NCBI RefSeq assembly: GCF_009720385.1
Contig: NZ_ML769301.1
Location: 832,911-896,910, forward strand
DNA length: 64,000 nucleotides
Origin: Catellatospora vulcania
GTDB lineage: Bacteria; Actinomycetota; Actinomycetes; Mycobacteriales; Micromonosporaceae
Direction: 5' to 3'
Shown one piece after another: positions 9,899-25,842 of the stretch. The notes beneath the pieces were generated by a model. It saw nothing but the letters and a program-made list of their open reading frames with translations, ran no database searches and was not told the DNA's origin. The position numbers and the translations under genes are program-made. How positions within the stretch are numbered: position 1 is the first letter of the stretch; every line of letters begins with the position of its first letter.

Positions 9899-9912
9899 AT
9901 GTGGAGGTCCCG

Positions 9913-10698
9913 GTGAGCGGCAACGAGGCGGAGATCGGGTATCCCGGCGTGGGCCGGGTACTGGTGATCATCCCGACGTACAACGAGTCGGAGAACGTCC
10001 GCCTGATCGTGCCCCGGGTGCGCCGGGCCACGCCCGACGTCGACATCCTGATCGCCGACGACAACAGCCCCGACGGCACCGGCGCCATCGCCGACGAGAT
10101 GGCCGCCGCCGACGACCACATCAAGGTGCTGCACCGGCCCGGCAAGCAGGGCCTGGGCGCGGCGTACATCGCGGGCTTCGACTGGGCCCACGAGCACGGC
10201 TACGACGCCGTGGTCGAGATGGACGCCGACGGCTCGCACGCCCCGGAGGAGCTGCCCCGGCTGCTCGACGCGCTGCGCGGCGCGGACGCGGTGATCGGCT
10301 CACGCTGGGTGCGCGGCGGCAAGGTCGTCAACTGGCCGGTGCGCCGGCTCATCCTGTCGCGCGGCGCGAACTTCTACACCCGGGTCGTCATGGGCATGGG
10401 CGTCAAGGACGCCACCGGCGGCTACCGCGCCTACCGGCTGCCCGTGCTGCGCAAGATCGACGTCGAGACGGTGACCTCGCGCGGCTACAGCTTCCAGGTC
10501 GAGCTGACCTACCGTACGCACTCGCACGGCTTCCGCATCGTGGAGGTGCCGATCACGTTCGCCGAGCGCGAGCACGGCGTGTCCAAGATGAGCGGCTCCA
10601 TCATCAAGGAGGCGCTGTGGAAGGTCACCGTGTGGGGTGCCCAGTCCCGCCGCGAGCGCGTGCGGCGTATGTTCAAGCCGAGTGACCGCTGGCCGTGA
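9913..10698 (+). CDS. ppm1: Polyprenol monophosphomannose synthase
   Basis: GT2-family glycosyltransferase that transfers mannose from GDP-mannose to polyprenyl phosphate, the donor for mannosylated lipids and secreted proteins. The 261-residue product shows [22 protein letters not shown] and the DADGSH metal/nucleotide site. GTG at 9913 is chosen because GGAGG sits five bases upstream; a GTG at 9901 is possible. It follows lnt closely, the same partnership as in mycobacteria. There is no C-terminal membrane anchor of the DPM1 type I enzymes. Confidence 0.9.
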
Positions 10699-10732
10699 TC
10701 CCGTGCCGGCCGGACCGGCTGGAGGTGACCGG

Positions 10733-11251
10733 ATGCGCAGACTGCGGTGGGTGCCGCTGGCCGTGCTGCTGCTCGGCGTGGTGGAGTTCGTCGTCTTCTG
10801 GGGCGTCAGCCGGGTGATCGGCATCGGCTTCACGCTGCTGATCGCTGTCGGCCTGATGCTGCTGGGCGTGCTGCTGCTGCGCAAGGAGGGGCTGTCGGCC
10901 TGGCGGCGGCTGCGCGACGCGCGCCAAGCCGGGCAGGCCCGCGGCGACCAGGCCGTGGACGGCGTGGTCGGGCTGATCGCGGCCCTACTGCTGGTCATCC
11001 CCGGGCTGCTCACCGCGGCCGTCGGGCTGCTGCTGCTGATCCCACCGGTGCGACGGCTCGCCCGCGGGCGGGTGCGCGCCGCGACCGAGAAGCGCATCCC
11101 GGCCTCGGCCGCGAACAGCGTGTTCGGGCCCAAGCGGGTGCGGGTCAGCACGCCGCACGACCCGCACCACCAGCCGCACCAGTCACCGCCGCCCGCGGCG
11201 GGCCGTCCCGCAGGGCCGACCGAGGTCATCGAGGGCGAGATCGTCGACTGA
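10733..11251 (+). CDS. fxsA: FxsA-family membrane protein
   Basis: A 172-residue cytoplasmic-membrane protein with hydrophobic segments near residues 5-50 and 75-105 and a hydrophilic tail ending EVIEGEIVD, typical of FxsA. FxsA in E. coli influences phage F exclusion; its role in actinomycetes is not known. The ATG is preceded by GGAGGTGACCGG. It follows ppm1 on the same strand and ends at a strong bidirectional terminator facing rbpA. Confidence 0.8.
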   Translation: MRRLRWVPLAVLLLGVVEFVVFWGVSRVIGIGFTLLIAVGLMLLGVLLLRKEGLSAWRRLRDARQAGQARGDQAVDGVVGLIAALLLVIPGLLTAAVGLLLLIPPVRRLARGRVRAATEKRIPASAANSVFGPKRVRVSTPHDPHHQPHQSPPPAAGRPAGPTEVIEGEIVD

Positions 11252-11254
11252 CAG

Positions 11255-11293
11255 CACGAAGGCGCCCTCCCGGCTCGGGAGGGCGCCTTCGTG
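11255..11293. terminator. Bidirectional terminator between fxsA and rbpA
   Basis: Perfect 18-base stem (CACGAAGGCGCCCTCCCG and its complement) with a GCT loop, between two convergent genes. It has no U-tract, as usual in actinomycetes. It is loosely related in sequence to the hairpins at 31.0, 34.9 and 39.5 kb. Confidence 0.88.
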
Positions 11294-11298
11294 TGTGT

Positions 11299-11637
11299 TC
11301 AGCGGCCGCGTCGGGTACGCACGTCGGCCAGGCGCTCGTTGAGGATCTCGTCGAGCTCCGCCATGGAACGCCGCTCCAGCAGCATGTCCCAGTGCGTACG
11401 CGGCGGCTTGACCTTCTTCTGCTCGGGCTCGGTGCCGTCGACCAGGCGCGCCACGCTCCCGTCGAACTTGCACTCCCAGGTCCCCGGCACCTCTGCCTCG
11501 ACGGCGAACGGCACCTCGAATCGGTGGCCCTGGGCACAGAGGAACTCGCGCATCTGACGGGGCGCGAGTTCGGTGTTGCGCTCAGACTCGTAGCTCACGG
11601 CCCCCAGTCGGCTTCCCCGCAACATCCGATCGCCCAT
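11299..11637 (-). CDS. rbpA: RNA polymerase-binding protein RbpA
   Basis: Actinobacterial transcription factor that binds RNA polymerase and group 1/2 sigma factors and stabilises the open complex. The 112-residue product has the N-terminal MGDRMLRGSRLGAVSYE segment, the beta core with FLCAQGHRFEVPF and GTWECKFDG, and the C-terminal sigma-interaction helix HWDMLLERRSMAELDEIL. Full length and canonical. Convergent with fxsA. Confidence 0.96.
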   Translation of the reverse strand: MGDRMLRGSRLGAVSYESERNTELAPRQMREFLCAQGHRFEVPFAVEAEVPGTWECKFDGSVARLVDGTEPEQKKVKPPRTHWDMLLERRSMAELDEILNERLADVRTRRGR

Positions 11638-11821
11638 GTCGGCTCCTCACAGTCGTATTGCTTCCGGGTGATGCAACGACCTGGACGCCCCGACGATTCC
11701 CCGCCGTGACCCACGCCGCTGCCTCCGCCGATTCCGCAGAGCGTCTCATGTGTGCCCTAGCGTTGCGATACCGTCCGATTGGACCTTTTTTGCGGGGTAC
11801 ATCACATCCGGGGGTAACACG

Positions 11822-13312
11822 ATGGCCACCACGGCGGTGCCGGCATCGGGCAAACCGGTCAAAACCTGGCTGGGCCACCCCGGTGGCCTGGTCGTGCTGT
11901 TCCTCACCGAGATGTGGGAGCGGTTCAGCTACTACGGCATGCGGGCCATCCTCACCCTGTTCCTGGCCGCGGAGCTGACCGACGGCGGCTTCGGCATGGA
12001 CGACGTCGCCGCCGCCTCGCTGTACTCCATCTACGTCTCGATGGTCTACTTCACGGCCCTGCCCGGCGGCTGGATCGCCGACCGGATCCTCGGCACCCGC
12101 CGCAGCGTGCTGTGGGGCGGCGTCATCATCGCGCTGGGCCACTACGCGCTGGCGTTCTCCGCCAGGTCCATGTTCTACCTCGGCCTCGTGCTCATCGTGC
12201 TCGGCACCGGCCTGCTCAAGCCCAACATCTCGGCCATGGTCGGCGAGCTCTACGACAAGCACCCGGAGATGCACGAGTCCCGCCGTGACGCCGGCTTCAC
12301 GCTGTTCTACCTCGGCATCAACCTGGGCGCCTTCTTCGCCCCGCTGCTGACCGGCATCTTCGCGGCCAGGCAGGACTGGCATGTGGCGTTCGGCATCGCC
12401 GCGGTCGGCATGACCATCGCGGTGATCCAGTACCTGGTGGGCTACCGCCGGCTGGAGGGCGTCGGCCTCAAGGCGCACAAGCCGCTGCAGACCCACGAAC
12501 GCAACAAGATCCTGAAGATCTCCGCGATCGTGGTGGCCGTCGTGGCGGTGCTGCTGGCGATCGACATCGCGGCGGGCACCTTCAACGCCGACCACGTCAA
12601 GAACGCGCTCACCGTCCTGGCGCTGGCCGTGCCCGCCCTGTACTTCGTCATGATGTTCCGCGACCGGACCCTGACCCACCAGGAGCGCTCCCGGGTAAGC
12701 GCGTACGTGTGGATTTTCATCGGGGCGGCGTTGTTCTGGATGATCTACGACCAGGCGGGCAGCCTGGTGAACCTGTTCACCAACGAGAAGGTCGACCGGC
12801 AGGTGGGCAGCTTCGAGATCCCCACGGCCTGGTTCCAGTCGGTCAATCCGGTGCTGATCCTGCTGCTCGCGCCCGTGTTCGCGTGGATGTGGACCAAGCT
12901 GGACCGCCGCCAGCCCGGCACGCCGGTCAAGTTCTCCCTGGCACTGCTCGGCATCGGCCTGTCGTTCCTGGTGATGGGCACCGCAGGGGCGCTCGCCGCG
13001 CGCGGCCTGATCTCGCCGTGGTGGATCGTGCTGGTGTACCTCATCCAGACCTGCGCCGAGCTGCTGCTGTCCCCGGTCGGCCTGTCCGTCACCACCAAAC
13101 TCGCCCCGCTGCGCTACGCCAGCCAGGTGATGGGCCTGTGGTTCCTGGCCACCGCGGCCGGCAACGCCCTCAACACCTGGGTGACGCCGCTGAGCGCCAA
13201 GCTGTCCGACGCCGCGTACTACGGCAGCCTGGGCGTGCTCGCCATTCTCGTGGGCGTCTGCTTCTGGTTCGGCGCCCGCCGGATCGGCGACCTGATGTCC
13301 GGCGTGCACTGA
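11822..13312 (+). CDS. POT-family proton-dependent oligopeptide transporter
   Basis: Major-facilitator peptide:H+ symporter, 496 residues with about 14 hydrophobic segments. The PTR2 signature FLTEMWERFSYYGMRAIL (ExxERFxYY) is at residues 27-44, and GLLKPNISAMVGELY and FTLFYLGINLGA follow. The ATG at 11822 fits the family N-terminus; an upstream in-frame extension from 11750 lacks family resemblance. A TPR-like gene starts 13 bases downstream and may be co-transcribed. Confidence 0.92.
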   Translation: MATTAVPASGKPVKTWLGHPGGLVVLFLTEMWERFSYYGMRAILTLFLAAELTDGGFGMDDVAAASLYSIYVSMVYFTALPGGWIADRILGTRRSVLWGGVIIALGHYALAFSARSMFYLGLVLIVLGTGLLKPNISAMVGELYDKHPEMHESRRDAGFTLFYLGINLGAFFAPLLTGIFAARQDWHVAFGIAAVGMTIAVIQYLVGYRRLEGVGLKAHKPLQTHERNKILKISAIVVAVVAVLLAIDIAAGTFNADHVKNALTVLALAVPALYFVMMFRDRTLTHQERSRVSAYVWIFIGAALFWMIYDQAGSLVNLFTNEKVDRQVGSFEIPTAWFQSVNPVLILLLAPVFAWMWTKLDRRQPGTPVKFSLALLGIGLSFLVMGTAGALAARGLISPWWIVLVYLIQTCAELLLSPVGLSVTTKLAPLRYASQVMGLWFLATAAGNALNTWVTPLSAKLSDAAYYGSLGVLAILVGVCFWFGARRIGDLMSGVH

Positions 13313-13325
13313 GAGGCGACTTCCG

Positions 13326-14282
13326 ATGACCATCCTTGCCGCGAACATCACCGTCGAGCAGCTGCGTGACGAGGTCTCGGCCCTGGCCGGGCGGTGCCTG
13401 TGCGACCCGGTGACCGAGCTGTTCGGCCCGCTGCTGGAGACCCAGGAACGCGTCTTCAGCCGGCTGGAGAACGACCCGGTGCCTGACCACGTGCACGACC
13501 TCTACCTGCTGGCGGCCCTCGTGGCGGCCATGCTCGCCAAGGCCCACCACGACCTCGACCGCGGGCACCAGGCGATGTCGCTGGCCCGGATGGGCTACGT
13601 GTGCGCCGACAACATCGGCCACACCGGCCTGCGCGCGTGGAGCCGGGGACTGCAGAGCCTGCTGGCGTACTCTGCCGGACGGCCGCAGGAGGCCGCCGCG
13701 TTCGCCGACTGCGGCGCGCGGATCGCCGCCGAGCAGACCGGGTCCGTGTCGTCGTGGCTGGCCAGCTCGCAGGCACGGGCGCTGGCCCGGCTCGGCGCGG
13801 CCGAACCCGCCCGGCTGGCCCTGGTACGCGCCGACGACATGCGCGAGCACCATGTCCACGACGACCTCGACGCGATCGGCGGGATCTTCCTGTTCGCCCC
13901 GGCCCGCCAGCACCACTATGCCGCCGACGCGTACGCCTGCCTGCCCGGACAGCAGGAACGCGCGGTGCACGAGGCCACCCGCTCGATCGCCCTGTACGCC
14001 GCGGCCACGCCGGAGCAGCGGTCCTTCGGCGACGAGGCGGGCGCGCGCTGCGTGCTGGCACTGACCCGGGTATGGGCCGGCGACACGGCTGCGGCCCGGG
14101 ACACGCTCAGCCCGGTGCTGCGACTGGACCTGCCCCGCCGCACCGCCGAGGTCATGGCCGGGGTGGCCCGCGTCGGCGACGCCCTGCGCGACTCCCGCTT
14201 CGCCGACGTGCCCGAAGCCCGCGACCTGCGTGAACAGATCGAATGGTTCGCCCAGCGCCCCGCCTCGGCCCTGGCCAGTTGA
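13326..14282 (+). CDS. TPR-like helical repeat protein, regulator-type without HTH
   Basis: 318 residues, all-alpha, with repeated Ala/Arg-rich helices (HDLDRGHQAMSLARMGYVCAD, LASSQARALARLGAAEPA). This resembles the TPR sensor half of actinobacterial XRE-type regulators, but no helix-turn-helix is present at the N-terminus. GAGAGGCGACTTCCG precedes the ATG. It follows the peptide transporter by 13 bases. A role in binding a peptide or protein partner is inference, and no specific function is assigned. Confidence 0.6.
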   Translation: MTILAANITVEQLRDEVSALAGRCLCDPVTELFGPLLETQERVFSRLENDPVPDHVHDLYLLAALVAAMLAKAHHDLDRGHQAMSLARMGYVCADNIGHTGLRAWSRGLQSLLAYSAGRPQEAAAFADCGARIAAEQTGSVSSWLASSQARALARLGAAEPARLALVRADDMREHHVHDDLDAIGGIFLFAPARQHHYAADAYACLPGQQERAVHEATRSIALYAAATPEQRSFGDEAGARCVLALTRVWAGDTAAARDTLSPVLRLDLPRRTAEVMAGVARVGDALRDSRFADVPEARDLREQIEWFAQRPASALAS

Positions 14283-14289
14283 CCTGTGG

Positions 14290-14721
14290 TCAGGACTCCA
14301 GCAGGGCGTCGATCAGGCGCAGGAGCTCGGCGGTGGTGGCCGCGCCGCCGAGCAGGATGAGGCGCAGCCGGGCGCGCTCCTCGTCGTAGACCGCCTGCAC
14401 GCGGACCGGTCCGTCATCGTCGTCGCGGCGCCCGCCGACCGCGGTGGTGACCAGCGTGGTCAGCCGGTCGACGTCCGTGCGGGAGATCGCGTCGATGGAG
14501 ACGACGCTGGACACCTCGACGTGGCGGGTCCGCCGGGCCTGCTCGCGCGCGGTGGCGGGCACCGTCCCGCCGGTCAGCTCCGCGAGGTCCGCGCTGCTGA
14601 TGCGGTACTGCCTGCCGATGCGCACCGCCTTGAGCCGGCCCTCGCGCACGTAGTTGCGCACGGTCTTCACATGCAGGCCAAGGCGTTCGGCGACCTGCTC
14701 GACCGAGTACAGCTCCGACAT
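14290..14721 (-). CDS. Excisionase/MerR-type helix-turn-helix protein
   Basis: 143 residues. The N-terminal domain YSVEQVAERLGLHVKTVRNYVREGRLKAVRIGR is the winged HTH-17 excisionase-like fold (residues 5-45). The C-terminal part (KVDxLT-type beta/alpha, VRVQAVYDEERARLRLILLGG) is unassigned. It sits four bases after the DUF4180 gene on the same strand and is probably its partner or regulator. GGAGTGACCCG precedes the ATG. Confidence 0.75.
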   Translation of the reverse strand: MSELYSVEQVAERLGLHVKTVRNYVREGRLKAVRIGRQYRISSADLAELTGGTVPATAREQARRTRHVEVSSVVSIDAISRTDVDRLTTLVTTAVGGRRDDDDGPVRVQAVYDEERARLRLILLGGAATTAELLRLIDALLES

Positions 14722-14725
14722 CGGG

Positions 14726-15130
14726 TCACTCCTTCCCGGCCGCGGCCTGCGCCCCGCTCAGGCGGCGCACGAGTTCGTCGAGGTCCGCGGTGAACCAGAT
14801 GTGCCGTCCCCGGTTGGATTCGCGCACGAACGCGCGCAGCGCGCTGCTGCGGGCCAGGTGCGCCGAGACGTCGCCCACGACGACGAACCTGAGCCGGTAG
14901 TTGACGAACTTCTGCATGATCTCGCCGGCCAGGCCGGTGCCGAGGGTGAAGAAGCCGTCGGCGAACACCTCCGCGGCCACCGCCACGGTGTCGGCGCGGC
15001 CGTAGGTGGCCCCGATCAGGTCCAGCGCGTCCTGCGTCGAGGCGATCGGGAGGCCGTCGCCGTCGCGGACGAGCATGGTACCGCCGTCGTAGGTCAGGAG
15101 CCGGTCGGGAGCGGTGGGGACGGTGGACAT
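14726..15130 (-). CDS. DUF4180 domain protein
   Basis: 134 residues matching the DUF4180 layout: an early IASTQDALDLIGATYG segment, LGTGLAGEIMQKFVNYRLRFVVVGD in the middle and the late ALRAFVRESNRGRHIWFTADLDEL. The fold resembles STAS-like anti-sigma antagonists, and the function is unknown. Ribosome binding site GGAGACGAGC. It lies between an FGE-like gene and an HTH gene on the same strand, so the three probably form one transcript. Confidence 0.8.
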   Translation of the reverse strand: MSTVPTAPDRLLTYDGGTMLVRDGDGLPIASTQDALDLIGATYGRADTVAVAAEVFADGFFTLGTGLAGEIMQKFVNYRLRFVVVGDVSAHLARSSALRAFVRESNRGRHIWFTADLDELVRRLSGAQAAAGKE

Positions 15131-15203
15131 GCTCGTCTCCGTGGTCGGGGTCGGTGGGCCGCCGTGGCGGCAGGGTCGTCGAGGTCCGGCGTGACCGGGT
15201 CGG

Positions 15204-15914
15204 TCATGGTGAGCGCGCGACGCGGAAGCCCAGGTCGTCGATGTGGAACGCGGGATGGCTGCGGCGGCGGCACGACGCCCGCAACCCGCGCGGCAGGTCC
15301 TGCCAGCCGCCGCCGCGGAAGACGCGGTACGGGCCGTAGACGCGCGGGTCGTAGACGTCCCAGCACCACTCCCACACGTTGCCGATCATGTCGTGCAGGC
15401 CCCACCCGTTCGGCTGCCTGGTCGCGACCTCACGAGCGGCGCCGCCGGAGTTGGCCCGGTGCCAGGCGGTCGTATCGAGGTCGCCGTAGCGCTCGCCGGC
15501 GGTCCCGGCGCGGCAGGCGTACTCCCACTCGGCCTCCGTCGGCAGCCGGTATCCGTCGGCCCGCCGGTCCCAGGTCACATCCTGCCCGTCCGGGTCGTCG
15601 CCGAGGGAGTAACACGGCGCGCGCCCGGTGGCCGCCGAAAGCTCGTTGCAGAACCGGACGGCGTCCAGCCACGACACGTCGACCACGGGCACCCGCGCCT
15701 GCGGGCCGCCGGTCGGGTTGGCCTCGCTGTGCGGCAGCCACCCGCGGAGCGCCGCGTACAGCTCCTGGGTCACCGGGTGCGCCGCAAGCCGGAATGGCGC
15801 GACATCGGCCCACCAGGTCCGCCTGGTGCCCTCATCGCGCAGCTCCACCTGCCCCGCGTGGATGTGGATCAGGTCGCCGACGAGAGCCTCGGACGGCGTT
15901 GTATTCCTTAACAC
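15204..15914 (-). CDS. Sulfatase-modifying-factor (FGE-like) domain protein
   Basis: 236 residues with the C-lectin-like SUMF fold: HPVTQELYAAL, WLDAVRFCNELS, YRLPTEAEWEYACRAG, GNVWEWCWDVYD and the C-terminal FRGGGWQDLPRGLRASCRRR. The first copper-binding cysteine of true formylglycine-generating enzymes (usually GGSWLC) is replaced here (GGGWQD), so formylglycine formation is unlikely and a binding or other oxidase role is more plausible. GTG start. First gene of a minus-strand trio with DUF4180 and an HTH protein. Confidence 0.82.
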   Translation of the reverse strand: MLRNTTPSEALVGDLIHIHAGQVELRDEGTRRTWWADVAPFRLAAHPVTQELYAALRGWLPHSEANPTGGPQARVPVVDVSWLDAVRFCNELSAATGRAPCYSLGDDPDGQDVTWDRRADGYRLPTEAEWEYACRAGTAGERYGDLDTTAWHRANSGGAAREVATRQPNGWGLHDMIGNVWEWCWDVYDPRVYGPYRVFRGGGWQDLPRGLRASCRRRSHPAFHIDDLGFRVARSP

Positions 15915-16336
15915 TCCTCGCCCTTCTCATTTGAGTGCCGACTAGTAGCGTATCACTCCCTAAATTACCCTCGTGAGGCGAATTGTGGGAATGCAGGGAA
16001 GGCGAGGGCCTTCCGCACAACCGCAGCGTCGCCACGCGCGGAGATCTCGTCTCGGTGCGGTGGGGGAGCGTGGCGCGGCTACGGCGTCGCCTCCTGCGGG
16101 GAAGCGCAAGCACCGGGTGGCCGAGCCTGTCGATCAAGTCTGGCCGTTCGCGCCAACGGGTGTCCGCCTGCGTAGCCGACGCCACCGCGGTCACAGCCCC
16201 GCTAGGCGGCCGCGCAGGGGCACCGGCGCGTGCCCTCGGCGGATCGAGCAGGAGGCCGACTCGTTGCCACGCATTGACGGAGATTGATTATTGTGCTCCG
16301 ATGGACGGGTCGTCGGCTGCGGGCCCCGGAGGTTGA
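15915..16336. other. 422-base divergent spacer without a gene
   Basis: Lies between the divergent FGE-like gene and the first P450. The first ~70 bases are AT-richer and probably hold the minus-strand promoter. The short plus-strand open frames here are Arg/Pro/Gly-rich and have no convincing start, so I do not call them. The plus-strand promoter for the P450/peptide operon must lie in this stretch. Confidence 0.55.
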
Positions 16337-17482
16337 ATGCCGCACACCACCCGCAGCGCCCCGCCGGCCGGCCCGGAACTGCTGCCGCTGCTGACCGAGC
16401 TGCACCGCCGCATCGGAGATACGTTCATCGTGTCCGGGGTGGGTCTGCACATCGCCGACCCGGTGCTGGCCAAGGCAGTGCTCGCCAACGTCGGCGCCGA
16501 CTTCACCGAGCACTCCGACTTCTTTGCCACCGCGACCGGCTTTCTGGGCCCCCGCGAGCTGCAGCAGCAGATCGCGCGCGAGGCACGGGACCTACTGGCG
16601 GCATACCTGACAACGCACGCGGCCGACCTGCCGCGGCTGGCCGGCGTACACCTGGCACCCGAAGCCGTGATGCCCGACGCCGCGAACCGGCTCCTGCACG
16701 AGCATCTCGGCCCCGTGCTGCTCGGTCCCGGCACCGACCCGTCGGTGCGCGCCGTGGTCGCCGACGTCGTCACGCACGCGGTCCTCGCGGGAGCGCGAGC
16801 CCGGCGCGGGCGACTGCGTCGGGCGCTGCTGCGGCACCGGGCGTACGCGGCGCTGGCCGCCGAGACAGCCCGGCGGCGCCGGCGTCCGGCCCGCGTCGCC
16901 ACCGACCTACTGGACGTCGTGGCGCTGGCCCTGCCCGAGGACTACGACCCGATCCAGGCCGTCGAGGTCTTCCTGAGCCTGCTGTTCGCCACCGTCGGAT
17001 CCACCGGGTTCCTGCTGTCGTGGGCGCTGTACCTGGTCGGCCACCATCCAGACCAGGCCGACGCGCCGCCGTCGGCGCTGGTGCGCGAAACTTTGCGGCT
17101 CTGGCCAGTCGCCTGGCTGTTCGGCCGCCCCGCCGCGCGAGCGCACGACCTCGGGCCGGCACGGGTCGAAGCCGGCCAGACCGTCCATGTGTGCGCCTAC
17201 CTGGTACAGCGCCATCCCGGGCACTGGTCCGATCCGGATGACTTCCGCCCGGACCGCTGGCGTGGCGGCGTACCCGGCGCCTTCCTGCCCTTCGGCTGGG
17301 GCACCCACGCCTGCACCGGCGCCGCCGTGGCCACGGGGCTGGTGGCCGACGTCCTGGCACAACTGCTCGCCGCATACGCCGTCACCGTCTGCGATGACGG
17401 CCGCCAGCCGCAGGTCGGTCCGGCGCTGGCACCGCCGCCGCACCGCATCCGACTTGTCCCGCGTCGCCGTGAGAGGAGGTGA
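16337..17482 (+). CDS. Cytochrome P450 with atypical I-helix (peptide-crosslinking type?)
   Basis: 381-residue soluble P450. ETLR (Glu251, Arg254), DDFRPDRW and the heme loop FGWGTHACTG with Cys326 are intact. The I-helix, normally AGxDT(T), reads FATVGSTG: the conserved acid is replaced by Gly and only a Ser-Thr remains. Ribosome binding site GGAGG. The stop codon lies inside the ribosome binding site region of a 34-codon gene, and a second odd P450 follows. Dedicated modification of that peptide by oxidative crosslinking is inferred from this layout. A polyketide- or terpene-type substrate is the alternative, but no such genes are nearby. Confidence 0.88.
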   Translation: MPHTTRSAPPAGPELLPLLTELHRRIGDTFIVSGVGLHIADPVLAKAVLANVGADFTEHSDFFATATGFLGPRELQQQIAREARDLLAAYLTTHAADLPRLAGVHLAPEAVMPDAANRLLHEHLGPVLLGPGTDPSVRAVVADVVTHAVLAGARARRGRLRRALLRHRAYAALAAETARRRRRPARVATDLLDVVALALPEDYDPIQAVEVFLSLLFATVGSTGFLLSWALYLVGHHPDQADAPPSALVRETLRLWPVAWLFGRPAARAHDLGPARVEAGQTVHVCAYLVQRHPGHWSDPDDFRPDRWRGGVPGAFLPFGWGTHACTGAAVATGLVADVLAQLLAAYAVTVCDDGRQPQVGPALAPPPHRIRLVPRRRERR

Positions 17483-17487
17483 TTGTT

Positions 17488-17592
17488 GTGCGTCGGCTGT
17501 TCCAGTCAATCAAACTGCACCTGCACCTGCGAAAGCGCCGCCACGCCCACGATGGTTCGTCCACCATGTGGGTTCTCTACCACCACATCTGA
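17488..17592 (+). CDS. Putative P450-RiPP precursor peptide (34 aa)
   Basis: GTG start with an excellent ribosome binding site, GAGAGGAGG, eight bases upstream and overlapping the end of the first P450 gene. The 34-residue product has a strongly basic front (RRLFQSIK, then RKRRHAH), a short DGSST linker and an aromatic/His tail TMWVLYHHI at the very C-terminus. Trp28-x-x-Tyr31 has the spacing of cyclophane links, and Tyr31-His32-His33 fits Y-x-H, as crosslinked in biarylitides. Short basic leaders with a C-terminal aromatic core next to P450 genes are the hallmark of P450-modified RiPPs (known examples: biarylitides, cittilins, tryptorubin-like atropopeptides). The product is inferred, and homologs are unchecked. 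A GTG at 17479 would add three residues. Confidence 0.65.
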   Translation: MRRLFQSIKLHLHLRKRRHAHDGSSTMWVLYHHI

Positions 17593-17600
17593 AGGAAGTC

Positions 17601-17636
17601 TCGTGGACGGCGCGTCCCCTGGTGCGCCGTCCACGA
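17601..17636. terminator. Hairpin between precursor peptide and second P450
   Basis: Perfect 13-base stem TCGTGGACGGCGC / GCGCCGTCCACGA with a 10-base loop, starting eight bases after the peptide stop and 21 bases before the next gene. A partial terminator or mRNA-stabilising hairpin directly behind a precursor gene is common in RiPP operons and would keep peptide levels above enzyme levels. Confidence 0.8.
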
Positions 17637-17657
17637 CCGCACCGTGAGGAAGGCACG

Positions 17658-18872
17658 ATGCCGCCGGAGGAGTCCGGGCTGGTCGACCAGCTACACCGCC
17701 GCCACGCCGCCGAGGGTGACGTCTTCGACGTCGACGCCACAACCGTCGCCATCCTCGACCCCGACCTCGCCACCGCCGTCAACCGCGCCAACTTCGCCGA
17801 CCAGGATGTGGGCGATCCGCTCGGTGATCTGCTGGCGGGGCGAAGCGGCCCGGCGCCCTGGTCGCGCATCCGCGCGGCCTGGCAGCCGGTGCTGCGGCGG
17901 CTGTGCGGCCCGGACGAGGTCGCCGCCCTCTACCGGCGCATGGCCGATCTTGCCCGCGCGCGGTCCGGCCACGACGTCGACCTGGTCGACTTCGCCCATG
18001 AGGTCTGCACCTTCGCGCTGCTGCCCACCGTCGTGGGCGGCCTCGGCCAACGCGCGCACAAACGCTTGCGACGTGACGTCCGTATCGGCTTCACCCAGCT
18101 GTCCGCGCCGCCGACCTCGCCCGGCCGCGCGGCCCGGGCGCGAACGGCCTGGGCCGAGGTCGCCGCGGGTGTGACCGTCCGCGCCGAGCTCCGCGAACGG
18201 GCAAGCGGCCGCCGTCCCCGGCGTCCGGACCTGGCCGACCCGCTGGTCGACCTGCTGCCCGTGCTCGGCTACGGTCGCGCGGTCGACGCCGTGACAGCGC
18301 TGCTGACCGCGATCGCGGGGCCGCCGGGTGCGGTGGCCGCTTGCCTGTGCCTTGCGTTGCGGCAGAACCCGGACTGGGCCGAGCGCATCGCGGCGGAGCT
18401 CGCGGAGCTCGAGCCAGGCGCGCTGCACCAGCCCACCACCGCGCCGTTGACGTCGCGCTTCGTCAAGGAGACTCTGCGGATGTGGAGCCCGCCGCTGCTT
18501 TTACTTCGCCAGGTCCGCACCCCCGTGTCGGTCGGTGAGCTGTCACTCGCGGTGGGGCAGCGGTACCTGGTCAGCCCGTACCTGATGCACCACGACGCGC
18601 GGCGTTGGGAGCGACCCGACGAGTTCGACCCAGACCGCTGGCTGCCGGGGTCAGGCGGTCGGCCGTCGACGGGTGGCGCCTACGTCCCTTTCGGACTCGC
18701 GCCGAAGTCGTGCGTCGGGGCCGGGCTCGGCCTCATCCAGCTGCTGGCGTTCTGTCGCCTGGTCACCACCGAGCTGTGCATCGAGCCGACTCCGGGCCCG
18801 GTGCCGTTCGTCGCGTTGCGCGCAGTCGCCGTACCTGCCCATCTACGCGGCACGGTCACGCCAAGGCGTTGA
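17658..18872 (+). CDS. Second atypical cytochrome P450 of the peptide locus
   Basis: 404-residue P450 with ETLR (Glu271, Arg274), DEFDPDRW and a heme loop FGLAPKSCVG with Cys352. The usual FGxG glycine is Ala. The I-helix reads TAIAGPPGAVAA and lacks both the acid and the threonine of AGxDTT, so normal O2-protonation chemistry is probably altered. The ATG has AGGAAGG upstream. It is co-directional with the first P450 and the peptide gene and separated from the peptide by a hairpin. It is clearly diverged from the first P450, suggesting two different oxidations on one substrate. Confidence 0.88.
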   Translation: MPPEESGLVDQLHRRHAAEGDVFDVDATTVAILDPDLATAVNRANFADQDVGDPLGDLLAGRSGPAPWSRIRAAWQPVLRRLCGPDEVAALYRRMADLARARSGHDVDLVDFAHEVCTFALLPTVVGGLGQRAHKRLRRDVRIGFTQLSAPPTSPGRAARARTAWAEVAAGVTVRAELRERASGRRPRRPDLADPLVDLLPVLGYGRAVDAVTALLTAIAGPPGAVAACLCLALRQNPDWAERIAAELAELEPGALHQPTTAPLTSRFVKETLRMWSPPLLLLRQVRTPVSVGELSLAVGQRYLVSPYLMHHDARRWERPDEFDPDRWLPGSGGRPSTGGAYVPFGLAPKSCVGAGLGLIQLLAFCRLVTTELCIEPTPGPVPFVALRAVAVPAHLRGTVTPRR

Positions 18873-19189
18873 CGGCGGGCAGACATGTGCGGCCGTAGGT
18901 GCTTCAGAGGTCGTGCCGGGCTGCTGGCAGCTGGGGCGGCCGCTTGCCGGTGGCCGCGTCGGCTTGCGCCACTGGGTCCGCTGCCCACAGAGCGGGCGCA
19001 CGAGGCCGAGTGCTGCGCTGCCGACCAGGACGTTCGGCCGCCGGGTGGCCGTCCGGTCAGCCCGGACGCCTCCTCCTGGCCGCGGTCGCCTCCCGGCGAA
19101 GTCGAGCTGTCGCGGCTGGTGGATGAGTCAGCCCCGTGCCCTTTGCCGCTCCATTGCACAGTGCCGTCCATCAATGCGAGCATGGCCTC
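18873..19189. other. 317-base spacer without a gene
   Basis: GC-rich sequence after the second P450. No open frame here has a plausible start together with coding-like composition on either strand. No clear terminator hairpin was seen. If the next gene starts at the upstream GTG (19136) the spacer is shorter. Confidence 0.45.
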
Positions 19190-19708
19190 GTGCTCTTTCT
19201 GCGACGCCAAGGTTGGTGGCTCCTGCCTGAGCTGGTCGCGGTCGGGATTCTCGCCGGTCTGCTCGCCGCGCAGCCCAACCCCCTGCCGGACCAACTGGCC
19301 GCCCGGGCGCAAACGGCGCTGGAACAGCTCTCACCGGCCGAGCTGGAGCTCTACGAGCCCAGCGGGCACGCTGTGGACCACGGGGGCAAGGTCCTGTGCG
19401 CCGCCGAGCCGTTCGGAACGGAACCGTCGACCGCCGACCGTATCGAGGACGTCGAGCGCATCTATGCCGTCTACTTCTGCGCGGTGGTCAAGCCCGGCAC
19501 CCCGTGGGACTATGCGAGCCGCAGCTCGGGTCCAGCGGTCATCACACTGACCGATCCACCGGCGGTCCAGACGGCGAAGTCCGGCGTGGATCCGGATCGC
19601 GTGTGGGCGATGATCCCCGACGAACTGGAGCAGAAGGCAGCCGCCAGATTCGTCGAATGGGGCCGGTTGGCCGGCCTGCGTACGCGCTACGAACAGGCGG
19701 CCGCGTAG
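19190..19708 (+). CDS. Membrane-anchored or secreted protein of unknown function
   Basis: 172 residues from GTG 19190 (190 if GTG 19136 is used). A single hydrophobic segment, LPELVAVGILAGLLAAQP, near the N-terminus is preceded by RRQGWW, consistent with an inside-to-outside anchor or a signal peptide. The rest is soluble, acidic and mixed alpha/beta with two cysteines (VLCAAEP, YFCAVV). No family recognised. It lies downstream of the P450/peptide locus on the same strand after a long gap, so membership is uncertain. Confidence 0.55.
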   Translation: MLFLRRQGWWLLPELVAVGILAGLLAAQPNPLPDQLAARAQTALEQLSPAELELYEPSGHAVDHGGKVLCAAEPFGTEPSTADRIEDVERIYAVYFCAVVKPGTPWDYASRSSGPAVITLTDPPAVQTAKSGVDPDRVWAMIPDELEQKAAARFVEWGRLAGLRTRYEQAAA

Positions 19709-19744
19709 TCGCTGGACTCTGGAAATCGATGCGCGGCATTGTCA

Positions 19745-19758
19745 TGGGAGCGATGTCA
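19745..19758. promoter_or_regulatory. CebR-like operator half-perfect site
   Basis: TGGGAGCGATGTCA matches 11 of 14 positions of the TGGGAGCGCTCCCA palindrome bound by cellulose regulator CebR/CelR in actinomycetes; the left half is perfect. It lies about 185 bases upstream of the cellulose-type LPMO start. This is a consensus match only, not evidence of binding. Confidence 0.35.
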
Positions 19759-19942
19759 TGTCAAGCTGCGGGTGTCTGATTCTTCAGACCGGTCGGGAGC
19801 CGAGCAACGGGCGCACATAGGTCGATTTCGTGTGCGCCGAGGTGCATGGCATGCGTCGGCAACTCCCTGCAGGCCGATGTTCCTGTGCGCCTTGTTCTTC
19901 GGCAGGCGTCGGCCTCTCCGTCAAAGAGGAAAGGACGACAGG

Positions 19943-21091
19943 GTGAATCGCAGACGCCAGCTCCTGGCAAGCTTGGCCGCAGTGGTGTTCACGGCGAGCG
20001 TCGGCTTCGCAGTGATCAATACTTCTCCGGCGCAGGCCCACGGCGTAACGATGTTCCCAGGCAGCCGCACCTGGCTGTGCTATCAGGATGCGCTTCGGCC
20101 CAACGGGTCGATCGCCGCCTACAACCCGGCATGTGCTGCCGCGATCGAGGGAAGCAAGACCGCATCCGATCCGAGCGGCACCACACCGTTGTACAACTGG
20201 TTCGCGGTGCTGCGCTCCGATGCCGGGGGCCGCACAGTCGGCTTCATCCCGGACGGGCAGCTGTGCAGCGGCGGGTCCGGCGGGCCGTACAACTTCACCG
20301 CCTACAACGCGACTCGCACGGACTGGCCGTTGACCCACCTCACCTCCGGGGCCAATATTCAGTTCCGGCACAGTAACTGGGCACACCACCCGGGCACGTT
20401 CCACCTGGCCATCACCCGTCAGGGCTGGAATCCCAGTTCGCCGCTGGCCTGGAGTGACCTTCAGGAGTTCTCGAGCGTCACCAACCCGCCGTCCAACGGC
20501 GGACCCGGTGCGCTGAACTACTACTACTGGAACGCCCAGTTGCCGACCGGCCGCAGCGGCCGGGCGGTCCTGTACATCCGGTGGGTGCGTTCGGACAGCA
20601 ACGAGAACTTCTTCAGCTGCTCCGACATCACCTTCGACGGGGGCAACGGCCAGGTGACCGGCGTCGGTCCCGACCAGACGCAGCCACCGCCGAGCTCGCC
20701 GCCTCCGTCGAACCCACCGCCGAGTTCGCCGCCTCCGTCGAGCCCGCCTCCCTCGAGCCCGCCGCCGTCGTCCCCTCCGCCCGGCGGAGCGTGTTCGGCG
20801 ACGTACTCGCAGGTCGGCCAATGGAACAACGGATTCCAAGGCGCGATCACGGTGCGAAACAACAGTTCCAGCACCACCGTCAACGGCTGGACCGTCAGAG
20901 CGACATACGCCAATGGGCAAACGGTCACGCAGTCGTGGGACAGCACCTATAGCCAGAGCGGCAGCGTGGTGACGTTCCGCAACGCCTCCCACAACGCGAC
21001 CATCGCTCCCAGCGGTACAAGATCGCTCGGCTTCCTCGGGAACTGGTCGGGAAGCAACTCCCCGCCAAGTCTCACGTGCTCCAGTCCGTAA
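19943..21091 (+). CDS. Secreted AA10 lytic polysaccharide monooxygenase with CBM2
   Basis: 382 residues. The signal peptide (residues 1-32) ends in PAQA, so mature His1 is His33 (HGVTMFPGSRTW). The second histidine-brace ligand is expected at His149 in NWAHHPGTF. The long ENFFSCSDITFDGGNGQVTG ending of the catalytic domain is close to the C1-oxidising cellulose LPMOs of Streptomyces (ScLPMO10C type). A Pro/Ser linker of PPPSS repeats (about residues 247-283) joins a C-terminal CBM2 (CSATYSQVGQWNNGFQGAI to the end). It acts outside the cell on crystalline cellulose. GTG start with AAGAGGAAAGGA upstream. Confidence 0.93.
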   Translation: MNRRRQLLASLAAVVFTASVGFAVINTSPAQAHGVTMFPGSRTWLCYQDALRPNGSIAAYNPACAAAIEGSKTASDPSGTTPLYNWFAVLRSDAGGRTVGFIPDGQLCSGGSGGPYNFTAYNATRTDWPLTHLTSGANIQFRHSNWAHHPGTFHLAITRQGWNPSSPLAWSDLQEFSSVTNPPSNGGPGALNYYYWNAQLPTGRSGRAVLYIRWVRSDSNENFFSCSDITFDGGNGQVTGVGPDQTQPPPSSPPPSNPPPSSPPPSSPPPSSPPPSSPPPGGACSATYSQVGQWNNGFQGAITVRNNSSSTTVNGWTVRATYANGQTVTQSWDSTYSQSGSVVTFRNASHNATIAPSGTRSLGFLGNWSGSNSPPSLTCSSP

Positions 21092-21107
21092 CCACCAGTG
21101 GTAGGAC

Positions 21108-21140
21108 GGCGGGTGCCCCTTGATCAGAGGGGCACCCGCC
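21108..21140 (+). terminator. Terminator after the LPMO gene
   Basis: Perfect 12-base stem GGCGGGTGCCCC / GGGGCACCCGCC with a nine-base loop, 17 bases after the LPMO stop. Confidence 0.85.
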
Positions 21141-21339
21141 CTTCATGTGGAGCTGACCGAGATGGTGCGCGCGCCGAGTCTGCTTCTCGATCTGGGCCGG
21201 CGCCGGTACGGGCGTCGTGGTGCAAGACGTCGAGCGCGAGCTGGGCGATCGGGTTCCCGGGATCGTCAGACCGGTGAACAGGCGCCGGCCCGGAGTAACC
21301 GGCCCACATCGTCCGGGAAGTGACGGTGATGGAGTCAGG

Positions 21340-22437
21340 TCAGCCCAACGTCAGCCAGGTGATGCCCAGCTTCTGCAGCCGGGTGTGCTCGGCGGCCGAC
21401 AGAGCCGTCCGCCCGGTGGCGCGGCGCAGTAACGCGGCACGGTCCACGCCCGGTTCCCGGGCCGCCCGCGGCGCGGACAGCCCGAACAGCAGGCCTTCGA
21501 CGACCCCGGCGGCCTGCGGGGTGAGCCACGGCGCGACGCCGAGGGCGTCGGCCAGGTCCAGCCCGTGTACGGCCAGCTCGACCACCCGGGTGACCTGGAA
21601 GTCGGTGAGCCGCATCGGGTCGCCGTGGCGCGTGGTGACCAGCCGCGATCCCGGCGTGCCGGCGACCCGGGCCACCACCTGCGCGGCCAGCTGCTCGAAC
21701 CAGTCGATCAGCACCGCCGGGGTGCGCTGCTCGGCGAACTCCTGCGCGGTGTCCACCCGCTGCCGGTCGGCAGGCGGGCTGAACCGCTCGTCGGGGGAGT
21801 AGTAGCGCGCCGCGTCGATCGGCGGCCCCGGCGGCGCCGGTGCGTCGAGCATCTCCAGGGTGCGCGACAGCGCGATCGCGGCGTGGGCGAACTCGCCGCG
21901 CACCGTCCACGGCGGACAGCACGTGGGCCGGTCCAGGTCCGCGACCGGGGCCGCCCGCAGTGCCGCGACCAGCGCGGCCGACTCGGCGGCGACCGCCGCG
22001 CCGACGACGGCCGCGTCCGGGACCAGTGACGCCACCCGGAACCGTTCGGCGACCGCGACCGTGCCGTCGTCGACGGTGAAGTCCGGCTGCCCCAGGTAGC
22101 CGCGCATCTCGGCCGAGTGCCAGAAGCCTTCGTGCCCGGCACGCCACTCGGCGACCGAGTGGTGGCCCTCGCCCTCGTCGATCGCGTGCGCGAGGTCGAT
22201 CTCCCCCAGCGGCACCTGCCGCACCTCGGTGACCTCCAGAATCGCGACCGGCTGCCCGTCGGAGTCGATCAGCGTCGAGCGCTGTCCGGGCACCGGCAGC
22301 GGCTCGGCGTCGAACTCGTACCCGAGCAGCAGCCCCGTCGAGGACGTCTTGCGCCCGTCCAGCACGGCGGCCACCAGCTTGTCCCGCAGCGGCCCCGGAA
22401 ATCCCAGCTCGTAATCACTCAGCGCGTCATAGACCAC
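21340..22437 (-). CDS. ASCH domain fused to mycothiol-dependent maleylpyruvate-isomerase-like domain
   Basis: 365 residues with two modules. Residues 1-130 form an ASCH fold (RDKLVAAVLDGRKTSSTGLLL, SDGQPVAILEVTEVRQV, HHSVAEWRAGHEGFW), an RNA-binding-like pocket. Residues 140-365 resemble the DinB/MDMPI helical bundle (CCPPWTVRGEFAHAAIALSR, ELAVHGLDLADALG) used by mycothiol-dependent enzymes. The combination suggests a detoxification or nucleotide-modification role but no reaction can be assigned. It sits 35 bases downstream of the MFS transporter gene on the same strand and may be co-transcribed. Confidence 0.8.
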   Translation of the reverse strand: MVYDALSDYELGFPGPLRDKLVAAVLDGRKTSSTGLLLGYEFDAEPLPVPGQRSTLIDSDGQPVAILEVTEVRQVPLGEIDLAHAIDEGEGHHSVAEWRAGHEGFWHSAEMRGYLGQPDFTVDDGTVAVAERFRVASLVPDAAVVGAAVAAESAALVAALRAAPVADLDRPTCCPPWTVRGEFAHAAIALSRTLEMLDAPAPPGPPIDAARYYSPDERFSPPADRQRVDTAQEFAEQRTPAVLIDWFEQLAAQVVARVAGTPGSRLVTTRHGDPMRLTDFQVTRVVELAVHGLDLADALGVAPWLTPQAAGVVEGLLFGLSAPRAAREPGVDRAALLRRATGRTALSAAEHTRLQKLGITWLTLG

Positions 22438-22472
22438 GCCGCCAGCCTAGTTTCACCGCCGAACCGGTCGGG

Positions 22473-23624
22473 TCAGCCGGGTTCTGCCGGGGTCAGCGGT
22501 GCGGCGAACAGGGCCAGCGCGCCCGCGACGGCGAACGCGGCACCGTAGCCGACCGGGGCGATGAGCAGGCCGAGCGCGGCGGGGGTGAGGGCCGCGCCGA
22601 TGTTCTGCACCGTGTTCTGGGCGCCCAGGGCCCGACCCGCCCACACCGGCCCGGCGTGTTCGGCCACCGCGGTGTAGGACAGGCCGTTGCCGCTCATCGA
22701 CACCGCGACCGCCAGCACCAGCAGCGGAGCGGTCAGCGCCGACCCGGCCTGCGTCGCCGCGGCGACCAGCAGCACCACGGCCGCGTTGACCACGGCCAGC
22801 TGCCGCATCGGCCGCAACCGGCTGTCCACCGCGTCCGACCACCGCCCACACACCAGCCGTCCCGCACCCCCGAGCAGGTACGCGACAGCGGCCGCCTGCC
22901 CGGCCGCGACCTCCGACCAGCCCCGCTCGCCCACCAGATAGGCGACCGCGAAGACACTGGTCGTGAACTGCGGGACGACCAGCAGCAGGCTCGCCCCGTG
23001 GATGCGCCACAGGTTCGCCGTCCGGTACGGCGAGACCGCCGCGACCACCGCCGCCCGCTCCGGCCGGGGCGGATCGACCACGAGCACGCCGACCGCTACC
23101 GCCGCCACCAGGCATACCGCCGCACAGCCGAGCAGCACCCCGCGTACGCCGTGGGCCTGCGCGACCAGTGGCGTGCCGAGCCCGGCCAGCGCGCCGGAGA
23201 CGGGCAGCGCGGTCTGGCGCAGTCCCATCGCGAACCCGCGGCGCTCCGGCGGGAACCAGCCGAGCACCACCCGGCCGCTGGCCGCGTTGCCGGACGCGCA
23301 CGCGGCCCCGGCCAGGGTCAGCGCCACGCCGAGCGTCGCCAGGCCGGTGGCGTACGCCGCCGCGGCCAGCGTCGCCGCCGCGAGGACCAGCCCGACGGTC
23401 ATGGTCAGGCGCTCGCCGTAGGTGTCGGCGCACCAGCCCCAGGCGATGAGGGCCAGCACCATGCCGGCGCTCGGCGCGCCCAGTAGCAGTCCCACGTCGG
23501 CGAGCCCGAATCCCTGCGCGCGCAACGCCGGCACCAGCAGGATCAGCGCGCCGGTCGGCAGGTAGCAGGCGCCCTGGGCGAGCATGCCCAGTCCGAGCAT
23601 GACCCAGCGGTTCGGCTGCCCCAT
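22473..23624 (-). CDS. MFS transporter
   Basis: 383-residue major-facilitator protein with about 12 hydrophobic segments. Typical cues are the loop 2-3 motif GWCADTYGERLTMTVG and the second-half copy GRLVCGRWSDAVDSRLRP. It starts with ATG (MGQPNRWVMLGLGM). Substrate not predictable. Divergent from padR with a short shared promoter region. Confidence 0.88.
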   Translation of the reverse strand: MGQPNRWVMLGLGMLAQGACYLPTGALILLVPALRAQGFGLADVGLLLGAPSAGMVLALIAWGWCADTYGERLTMTVGLVLAAATLAAAAYATGLATLGVALTLAGAACASGNAASGRVVLGWFPPERRGFAMGLRQTALPVSGALAGLGTPLVAQAHGVRGVLLGCAAVCLVAAVAVGVLVVDPPRPERAAVVAAVSPYRTANLWRIHGASLLLVVPQFTTSVFAVAYLVGERGWSEVAAGQAAAVAYLLGGAGRLVCGRWSDAVDSRLRPMRQLAVVNAAVVLLVAAATQAGSALTAPLLVLAVAVSMSGNGLSYTAVAEHAGPVWAGRALGAQNTVQNIGAALTPAALGLLIAPVGYGAAFAVAGALALFAAPLTPAEPG

Positions 23625-23689
23625 CAGGTGACGGTAAGCGCACGGCCGCCGGCCCCGATACGTGATGTTGGTCGCCCGTTGACCGTTTT

Positions 23690-23721
23690 ACTACGCCGTG
23701 CGATGCTACGCAGAACGTAGT
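23690..23721. promoter_or_regulatory. Candidate PadR operator
   Basis: ACTACG at 23690-23695 and CGTAGT at 23716-23721 are complementary, and an inner CTACG-N5-CGTAG dyad lies at 23706-23720, directly in front of padR. PadR proteins commonly bind such dyads at their own promoter. The mfs gene diverges from the same region. Confidence 0.5.
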
Positions 23722-23733
23722 AGAGGAGCGTTC

Positions 23734-24048
23734 ATGGCCGGTCTCGCCGACCTCGGCAGGTTCTCCGAACCCGCGCTGCACATCCTGATCAGCCTCGCCC
23801 CCGGGCCCAAGCACGGCTACGCCATGCAGGACGACATCGCCGAGCTCACCGGATCCCGCCCCGGACCCGGCACCCTCTACGGCGCGATCCGGCGACTGGA
23901 GGAACACGGCTACATCGAGGCGCTGCCGGAAGCCGACCGCCGCAAGCCCTACCGGCTGACCGACGCCGGACGCGCCGCGCTCAACGCCGAACTGCAGCGC
24001 ATGAAGGCCCTCGCCGCCAACGGTCTGCGACGACTGGCGGTCGCCTGA
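23734..24048 (+). CDS. PadR-family transcriptional regulator
   Basis: 104 residues with the winged-helix PadR core (LHILISLAPGPKHGYAMQDDIAELTG, PGTLYGAIRRLEEHGYIE, RKPYRLTDAGRAAL). The ATG at 23734 has TAGAGGAGCG upstream. The stop overlaps the ATG of the next membrane protein, a common pairing in which PadR controls an exporter-like partner. Confidence 0.92.
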   Translation: MAGLADLGRFSEPALHILISLAPGPKHGYAMQDDIAELTGSRPGPGTLYGAIRRLEEHGYIEALPEADRRKPYRLTDAGRAALNAELQRMKALAANGLRRLAVA

Positions 24049-24920
24049 TGCGCGCGCTGCTCATCCGCGCGGTGCTCGCGCTCTACCCGCCCGCGGTCCG
24101 GGAACGCTACGGCGACGAGATCGCCGAACTGCTGCACGACAGCCCCCGGCCCGGCCGGGACCTGGCCGACACGGCCTGGTGCGCACTGCGCGACCGGCTC
24201 ACCCACCGAACGGAGACGATGACCATGGCGCAGGCCCGTGCCGCAGGCTGGACCGTGCTCAGGCTGATCGCCGTTCCGCCCGCGCTGGGGTTGCTGATGC
24301 TCGGGCTCATCTCGGCCATGATCGCGGTGGCGAACCAGGCGAGACTGTACGAGTTCGGTGACCACATGTACGCGGCAGCGACCCTGCTGGCGGTTCCGCC
24401 GGCATGGCTGCTCGGCCGGTGGCTGGTGCGGATCCGGCCGATCCCCGCCGTGGCGTTCGTCGTGCCCGTGGCGGTGGGCCTGGGCGTGGCCGCCATCGCC
24501 GCCGTGCCAGGGCTCGGCCAGGCGATGGGCGAGGTGCTGAGCGCCTCGCTGACCGCGGTCGTGTGCTGGACCGCGGGTGGCGCGCTGCTCGCGTACACGC
24601 TGCGGGTGCTGCTGCGGCGCGGGCGGCCCGCCGGCGCCTGGGTCGTCGGCCTGGCCGGCGGCCTGCTGCTGCCGGCCGCCGCCACCGCGGTGTACGTGCT
24701 GGCCGCGCTGCCCGCCGAACGCGCCCCGCGGCGTTTCGCGCCGCTGTGGTGGGCGTCCAGCATCAGCGGCTGGGACCCGGGTCTGGTGGACGACGCCTAC
24801 CGGCAGCTCGAGGACGTGATCAAGCTGCTGCCCCAGATGCTGACGCTGTGCACCGTTTTTCTGCTCGCGGTGGTGACCGTCACCGCGACCAGGCCGCGAA
24901 CCGCGGCCGAATCGGCTTGA
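24048..24920 (+). CDS. PadR-associated membrane protein
   Basis: 290 residues. The front (LYPPAVRERYGDEIAELLHD, residues 12-31) is the soluble prefix typical of permeases paired with PadR. It is followed by about six hydrophobic segments and a soluble loop near residues 225-265. Its ATG overlaps the padR stop (TGATG). Function unknown; it is probably a small membrane sensor or permease-related protein under PadR control. Confidence 0.78.
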   Translation: MRALLIRAVLALYPPAVRERYGDEIAELLHDSPRPGRDLADTAWCALRDRLTHRTETMTMAQARAAGWTVLRLIAVPPALGLLMLGLISAMIAVANQARLYEFGDHMYAAATLLAVPPAWLLGRWLVRIRPIPAVAFVVPVAVGLGVAAIAAVPGLGQAMGEVLSASLTAVVCWTAGGALLAYTLRVLLRRGRPAGAWVVGLAGGLLLPAAATAVYVLAALPAERAPRRFAPLWWASSISGWDPGLVDDAYRQLEDVIKLLPQMLTLCTVFLLAVVTVTATRPRTAAESA

Positions 24921-25728: not shown

Positions 25729-25737
25729 CCCGACCAC

Positions 25738-25828: not shown

Positions 25829-25842
25829 ACTGACCGAGCCGG

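Follow-up and report, generated by a model that had tools for sequence, protein, structure and literature searches.

A candidate two-P450 RiPP cassette in Catellatospora vulcania, probably related to the hyalucidin-type clusters

A 64,000-nucleotide stretch of the Catellatospora vulcania genome (contig NZ_ML769301.1, positions 832,911 to 896,910; hereafter the window) carries a compact group of genes that is likely to direct the synthesis of a ribosomally synthesized and post-translationally modified peptide (RiPP). Two cytochrome P450 genes, P1 and P2, lie on the plus strand with a 34-codon peptide gene and a hairpin between them, and together these form a single unit (Table 1). An earlier, sequence-only reading had described these features, along with the AGGAGG ribosome binding site and the TMWVLYHHI tail of the peptide, and that description proved accurate when the frames, the Pfam assignments and the stem were rechecked. 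The precursor peptide is ordered as leader, spacer and core, the leader being basic and the core reading W28-V-L-Y31-H-H-I. When the gap between P1 and P2 was subjected to 20,000 dinucleotide shuffles, a frame of at least 25 codons led by a ribosome site arose in 158 of them, and an aromatic ending of the form [WFY]xx[YWF][HN]x[IVL] in none.

Table 1. Features of the cassette, in positions of the window
Feature	Position	Strand	Details
P1, cytochrome P450 no. 1	16337..17482	+	381 aa; 'LRLWPVAW' type; Pfam PF00067, E 2.5e-21
AGGAGG ribosome binding site of the precursor	17474..17479	+	touches the P1 stop; GTG start 8 nt further on
Precursor gene	17488..17592 (including stop)	+	GTG start; 34 aa; MRRLFQSIKLHLHLRKRRHAHDGSSTMWVLYHHI
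Hairpin between precursor and P2	17601..17636	+	perfect 13-bp stem, 10-nt loop; no T-run after it
P2, cytochrome P450 no. 2	17658..18872	+	404 aa; Pfam PF00067, E 5.4e-23
Block alignable with congeneric genome G404	16294..18859	+	80% DNA identity over 2578 columns

The arrangement recurs widely. A genome collection covering 84,980 species, with a single genome apiece, was scanned with a two-row alignment of P1, which returned 59 loci, a lower bound since the scan required one of two peptide patterns in P1. With the window these make 60 P1-like genes, 44 of which are accompanied by a P2-type P450 (including locus L019, whose P2 runs off the end of the contig and was left out of the P2 statistics). 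Beside the P450 pair in all 44 of these loci, the window among them, lie one or more small genes ending in [WF]xxY[HNSRQD][HNSDTR][IVLM]-stop. They encode 54 precursor peptides, 48 of them distinct, at one to four per locus, with six loci holding two to four. The pair loci span four phyla, extending beyond the actinobacteria to Myxococcota, metagenome-assembled genomes (MAGs) of Acidobacteriota, and Gammaproteobacteria. This result supports the initial proposal of a RiPP cassette that pairs two diverged P450s with a precursor whose leader is short and basic and whose C-terminal core is aromatic, and the refutation test attached to it, a search for related P450 pairs beside which the peptide is not conserved, found the peptide in every pair locus. 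An apparent fusion of P1 and precursor in Myxococcus (L030) was ruled out, as a stop codon separates the two.

All 54 precursor ends fit W-x-x-Y-[HNSR]-x-[ILVM], the WVLYHHI of the window included. Counting back from the C-terminus, every one of the 54 peptides has Trp at -7 and Tyr at -4 (the search pattern itself demanded the Tyr and let Phe stand for the Trp), which bears out W28-x-x-Y31 as an invariant motif. The last residue is always I, V, L or M. The core pattern has no match in 965,696 control bases from the same loci, a control that is not blind, since a looser pattern had already brought the peptides to light when this one was drawn up. Nearly all precursors carry L-x-[IVL]-R within their basic leader stretch, in the window as LHLR, and 28 of the 54 have GGAGG no more than 20 nt upstream.

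Among ten other genomes of the genus, a close P1 homologue was found in one, G404, whose three-gene block matches that of the window (Table 1). Outside the block, nothing aligned at E <= 1e-10 between window positions 9001-27000 and 18 kb of G404. As the block can be aligned and its flanks cannot, the cassette appears to behave as a three-gene unit. The G404 precursor, MRRLFQSLKLHLHLRERRHAQDGSSTWPVWIIYHHI, begins with ATG at the same position, which backs the GTG start assigned in the window. Across 34 aligned codons, 25 are identical, three differ silently and six change the residue (the start codon among them); over 32 codons, the nonsynonymous and synonymous divergences (dN and dS) are 0.073 and 0.187. 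A hairpin occupies the corresponding position in G404, where the bases of its stem have changed.

Hairpins in the wider set were counted in 42 of the 43 pair loci, L035 being dropped because its P2 start was miscalled. A stem of at least 9 pairs (G-U pairs and one mismatch allowed) lies between precursor and P2 in 42 of 42 stretches, with an observed mean of 13.4 against an average of 9.0 in shuffles, and folding z falls below -1.64 relative to mononucleotide shuffles in 28 of the 42. The consensus fold of 21 stretches, which align poorly, is weak (-3.12 kcal/mol, six pairs, three with changes on both sides). A small frame followed by an attenuator-like hairpin might also have arisen by chance or encode a regulatory leader peptide, with the P450s acting on a small molecule. 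However, the core is kept in all 44 pair loci and across four phyla, six loci hold several precursor copies, two aromatic residues are invariant, dN lies below dS against G404, and in six gammaproteobacterial loci with the P450 order reversed the peptides still precede P2. This explanation is thereby largely refuted and we regard it as scarcely credible.

Both P450s depart in places from the usual P450 motifs. The Cys ligand of P1 lies in FGWGTHACTG and its I-helix reads FATVGSTGF, with Gly-Ser in place of the usual acid-Thr, while the heme motif of P2 is FGLAPKSCVG, with Ala where FxxG is usual, and its I-helix, AIAGPPGAV, lacks both the acid and the alcohol where they are normally found. The fourth heme-motif position is A, P, S or N, and never Gly, in every one of the 43 P2 rows. 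When five other P450s from the genome of the window are aligned with the pair, P1 shows Gly-Ser, keeping a Ser at the alcohol place, and P2 shows Gly-Pro; the others have the acid in three of five cases and Thr in all five. To judge from sequence, these I-helix substitutions fit oxidative coupling rather than ordinary hydroxylation, without proving it. P2 of the window retains the Cys ligand, ExxR and the family motifs. AlphaFold models of P1 and P2 (predicted local distance difference test scores, pLDDT, of 91.1 and 90.3) are both complete P450 folds, and structure comparison of the two returned the P450 fold and nothing beyond it. The solved chain closest to P1 by sequence is PDB 9ulw chain A, named 'Cytochrome P450' (E 2e-61); a text search for '9ULW' in open-licence papers found no paper, and the chain is absent from the 50 matches listed for P1 in either structural comparison, whose library may not include it. 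This chain groups by sequence with the P1 enzymes, at 44% identity to that of Pseudoalteromonas L057.

The sequence comparisons indicate that P1 and P2 evolve together. In a mirror-tree test of their identities over 43 pairs, r was 0.972, the best of 2000 shuffles reaching 0.270 (identities and mirror-tree used rows in which some frames extend past stops, and the P450 trees rows cut at the first stop). Both trees join the window with Rhizocola hellebori (100/100), to which each P450 is 54% identical. In 397 genomes of the order, with four candidates scored per genome, P2 was found at E <= 1e-30 in two, that of the window and G215, each time with P1 adjoining. Three further genomes of the order, G083, G118 and G310, have P1-like P450s (32-36% identity) with no P2 at E <= 1e-30, and no W-x-x-Y-H peptide was seen in these loci. 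Just upstream of the single P450 of G310 (locus L017, 2609-2677, minus strand) is a small frame ending in ERRWYWY, possibly a P450-modified peptide.

Sixteen P1-like loci lack P2, and eleven of these hold W-x-I-W peptides, three W-x-x-Y-Y-x-x-Y peptides, and two none that could be seen. The eleven, all from Streptosporangiaceae, hold the closest relatives of P1 among the single P450s in the fetched set, and in each a 21-aa peptide ending in AW[FYHR]IW directly follows the P450. This peptide has the form MRKL[LM]RRVTGRR[IV]NRQAW[FYHR]IW (L054, L056, L060-L062, L064-L069), its frame beginning three codons earlier in L061 and L065, and its core is probably cihunamide-like. Cihunamide clusters have a single P450. 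Upstream of more distant single P450s in Amycolatopsis and Actinocatenispora lie peptides ending in TW[VRQ][IM]YY[EV][IV]Y (L073 4987-5082, L075 5113-5208, L076 5522-5614), a possible further group of P450 RiPPs.

The sole NCBIfam match of the window peptide at E <= 1 is NF053510, 'hyalucidin A family RiPP precursor', matched over its full length with 17.5 bits (E 0.0034). Hyalucidin A is the subject of a paper by Yin et al. (Angew. Chem. Int. Ed. 2026, 65, e22698; cited in PMC13417212) whose title names a benzofuranoindoline and tandem P450 catalysis, with which tandem P450s acting on W28 and Y31 would agree; among the open-licence papers searched, hyalucidin turned up nowhere but in the references of PMC13417212. 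The NF053510 cut-off is passed by precursors from Streptomyces hyaluromycini (L033, 41.3 bits), presumably the hyalucidin producer to judge from its species name, and Lentzea (L019, 74 bits), both with P450s homologous to those of the window. Fourteen of the 29 distinct precursors tested individually pass, from streptomycetes, pseudonocardial genomes, Virgisporangium, myxobacteria and acidobacteria, and the precursors that fail are the 12 tested from Gammaproteobacteria together with those of the window, G404 and Rhizocola. On this sequence evidence we class the window as a diverged relative of an already described kind, placed within the wider cluster type and not under the NF053510 equivalog. 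The kind, at first thought undescribed, is thus covered by NF053510 and, as far as its title goes, by the 2026 paper. Nor is the architecture unusual, as had been supposed: two P450s are the rule in these clusters, and an atropopeptide cluster, that of laurentirubin B, is described with two as well (PMC11450843).

Taken together, it seems likely that the window holds a hyalucidin-type three-gene RiPP cassette in which both P450s act in turn on W28-x-x-Y31. From the cassette, its conservation, the invariant Trp and Tyr and the paired, co-evolving P450s, all read directly from the DNA, we infer the following chemistry, P450 order, leader removal and hairpin role. The ribosome would make the 34-aa precursor, with the basic and probably helical N-terminal part serving as leader and WVLYHHI as core. 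P1 probably forms a first Trp-Tyr bond across W28-x-x-Y31, and P2 probably adds the next oxidation on the same pair, giving a Trp-Tyr-fused (benzofuranoindoline-like) macrocycle. We assign the first bond to P1, and take P2 as the added enzyme, because single-P450 relatives of P1 adjoin W-x-x-W peptides with a cihunamide-like core. The tail of the window peptide has no rings besides W28 and Y31 except H32 and H33, and Trp and Tyr are the only invariant core residues; the W28/Y31 pair is therefore the most likely target of P2. The leader would be cut off by a host peptidase encoded outside the cassette, and the hairpin probably fixes the ratio of precursor to P2 message.

Several observations weigh against this reading. 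The score of the window peptide is below the curated NF053510 cut-off of 35 bits, as are those of its two nearest relatives (16.3 and 12.0 bits), and it is missing from the hits when the whole genome is searched with the model; that the hyalucidin A precursor ends in W-x-x-YHHI is itself deduced from the model and its name. No protease or exporter gene lies within the block common to the window and G404, and the hairpin stem beats all 30 of its own shuffles in 27 of the 42 pair loci, not in all. A further point concerns an upstream aromatic residue. W, Y or F stands at -8 or -9 in 53 of the 54 peptides, the sole exception being the window, which has Thr-Met at these positions; the first aromatic met upstream in G404 is a Trp three residues ahead of the core Trp. 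This absence lowers our confidence. Either the upstream aromatic is a non-substrate, or the product of the window differs from those of its relatives.

If the upstream aromatic were the substrate of P2 in the family, the chemistry in the window would have to differ, with the peptide receiving the P1 modification alone or a different second one. Its presence in nearly every peptide is what would speak for such a role. Yet its place is not fixed (-8 in FWYLYHHI, -9 in YRWYLYHHI) and its kind varies, and the P2 of the window keeps its catalytic and family motifs; this account appears very unlikely to us.

The second link proposed in the sequence-only reading was of another kind, with one P450 joining W28 to Y31 and the other joining Y31 to H33 in the biarylitide manner (Y-x-H), to give a bicycle. 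The window tail does offer Y31-H32-H33, His is its only other ring in the absence of the upstream aromatic, and biarylitide P450s are described as forming Tyr-His links (PMC13417212). In the family, His stands at -3 in 47 of the 54 peptides and at -2 in 28. P2 is nonetheless present where the remaining 26 peptides have N, D, S or T at -2, that is, no His at i+2, and where six lack His at both places (YNNI, YSNV, YRSI and similar), and conservation of the enzyme would be expected to go with conservation of its target. The Tyr-His link is thus not general, though the His it calls for is there in the window itself, and we judge the bicycle distinctly unlikely.

A tentative variant, itself on the unlikely side, is that the product of the branch formed by the window, G404 and Rhizocola hellebori differs in its chemistry from hyalucidin A. 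It is suggested because the window precursor alone lacks an aromatic one to two places before the Trp, yet has an intact P2. The P450s would then be confined to W28, Y31 and the HHI tail, and might for example combine a fused Trp-Tyr unit with a link from His to Tyr or Trp, which would give a fused bicycle.

If the hyalucidin-type reading is correct, a compact three-gene cassette, easily moved into a host, would make fused Trp-Tyr peptides of the benzofuranoindoline sort. The cluster type is wider than the curated model, taking in Gammaproteobacteria, Myxococcota and Acidobacteriota MAGs. In some loci one P450 pair is accompanied by several precursors, and such multi-precursor loci offer natural substrate variation for assigning bonds to each P450. 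The value of the window itself is as a diverged relative with an unusual core, and its missing upstream aromatic is the main opening for novelty.

In the Gammaproteobacteria, several precursors per P450 pair were seen in L050 (three, 7234-8045), L070 (three, 7156-7760), L051 (two, 7206-7528), L053 (two, 4261-4550), L055 (two, 2241-2539) and L063 (four, 4127-4618); these copies vary in core residues and so amount to natural substrate libraries. The order is reversed, to precursor(s), P2 and P1, in L053, L055, L057, L058, L063 and L071. Likely exporters adjoin the P450s in two gammaproteobacterial relatives, an ATP-binding cassette (ABC) transporter after P1 in L057 (7562-9343) and a multidrug and toxic compound extrusion (MATE) protein in L044. 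Around the cassette of the window, outside the block shared with G404, lie a formylglycine-generating-enzyme-like protein (15204-15914, minus strand; PF03781) and a lytic polysaccharide monooxygenase with a cellulose-binding domain (19739-21091, plus strand; PF03067 and PF00553). Another P450-like frame in the window, at about 58318-58974 on the minus strand (G000:C2:891228-891884), is 29% identical to P2 over that stretch. The search for recurrent neighbours was swamped by mechanical frames in the GC-rich DNA, and no further gene is put forward as a conserved part of the cassette in actinobacteria.

Comparison with known systems places the window at differing distances from the described P450 RiPPs. 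As in the biarylitides, P450s would crosslink aromatic residues of a ribosomal peptide. Biarylitide precursors, however, are described as pentapeptides encoded by an 18-bp gene, with a two-residue leader and Tyr-His and related links within three residues (PMC13417212), whereas the precursor here has 34 residues. The model of the aminopyruvatide P450 (ApyO, NF050147), with its threshold of 525 bits, gave 71.6 and 76.2 bits for the two P450s of the window.

The cihunamide P450s are reviewed as joining Trp(i) to Trp(i+3) through a C-N link (PMC11002830). Crosslink partners three residues apart are a likeness to the window, as are the W-x-x-W peptides of the closest fetched single-P450 relatives of P1; the cihunamide core is W-x-x-W, in contrast to the W-x-x-Y and two P450s of the window. 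Atropopeptides, defined by a KSLK leader motif and an xWxxxx core, are likewise described with a small leader-core precursor, P450-made aromatic links and minimal clusters without a protease gene (PMC11450843). Assigning the cassette to the atropopeptides or to the cihunamide/bitryptide type, with one P450 added, could draw on those W-x-x-W neighbours, on the second P450 of the laurentirubin cluster and on leader motifs near KSLK (QSIK in the window and Rhizocola, QSLK in G404). Exact KSLK, however, occurs in none of the 48 distinct peptides, the core is W-x-x-Y-H-x-I (WVLYHHI in the window) and not xWxxxx, and the nearest match is NF053510, so that we hold this assignment to be highly improbable.

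The closest ties are with hyalucidin A and its relatives. The precursors that pass NF053510 are 28-30 aa long (n=14) as compared with 34 aa in the window, which has a longer spacer between leader and core and no aromatic just before W28, and its P450s share 40-49% identity with those of the passing members that were compared. Within the wider type of two-P450, W-x-x-Y RiPP clusters, the window has both P1 and P2 beside the precursor together with the core ending, and departs in lacking the aromatic at -8 or -9, a trait noted in this analysis and not taken from a published definition. Like hyalucidin A, to go by the title of that paper, its product would be a bacterial RiPP made with two P450s in tandem, and the window shares its gene order with the S. 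hyaluromycini locus, where the core ends in FWYLYHHI.

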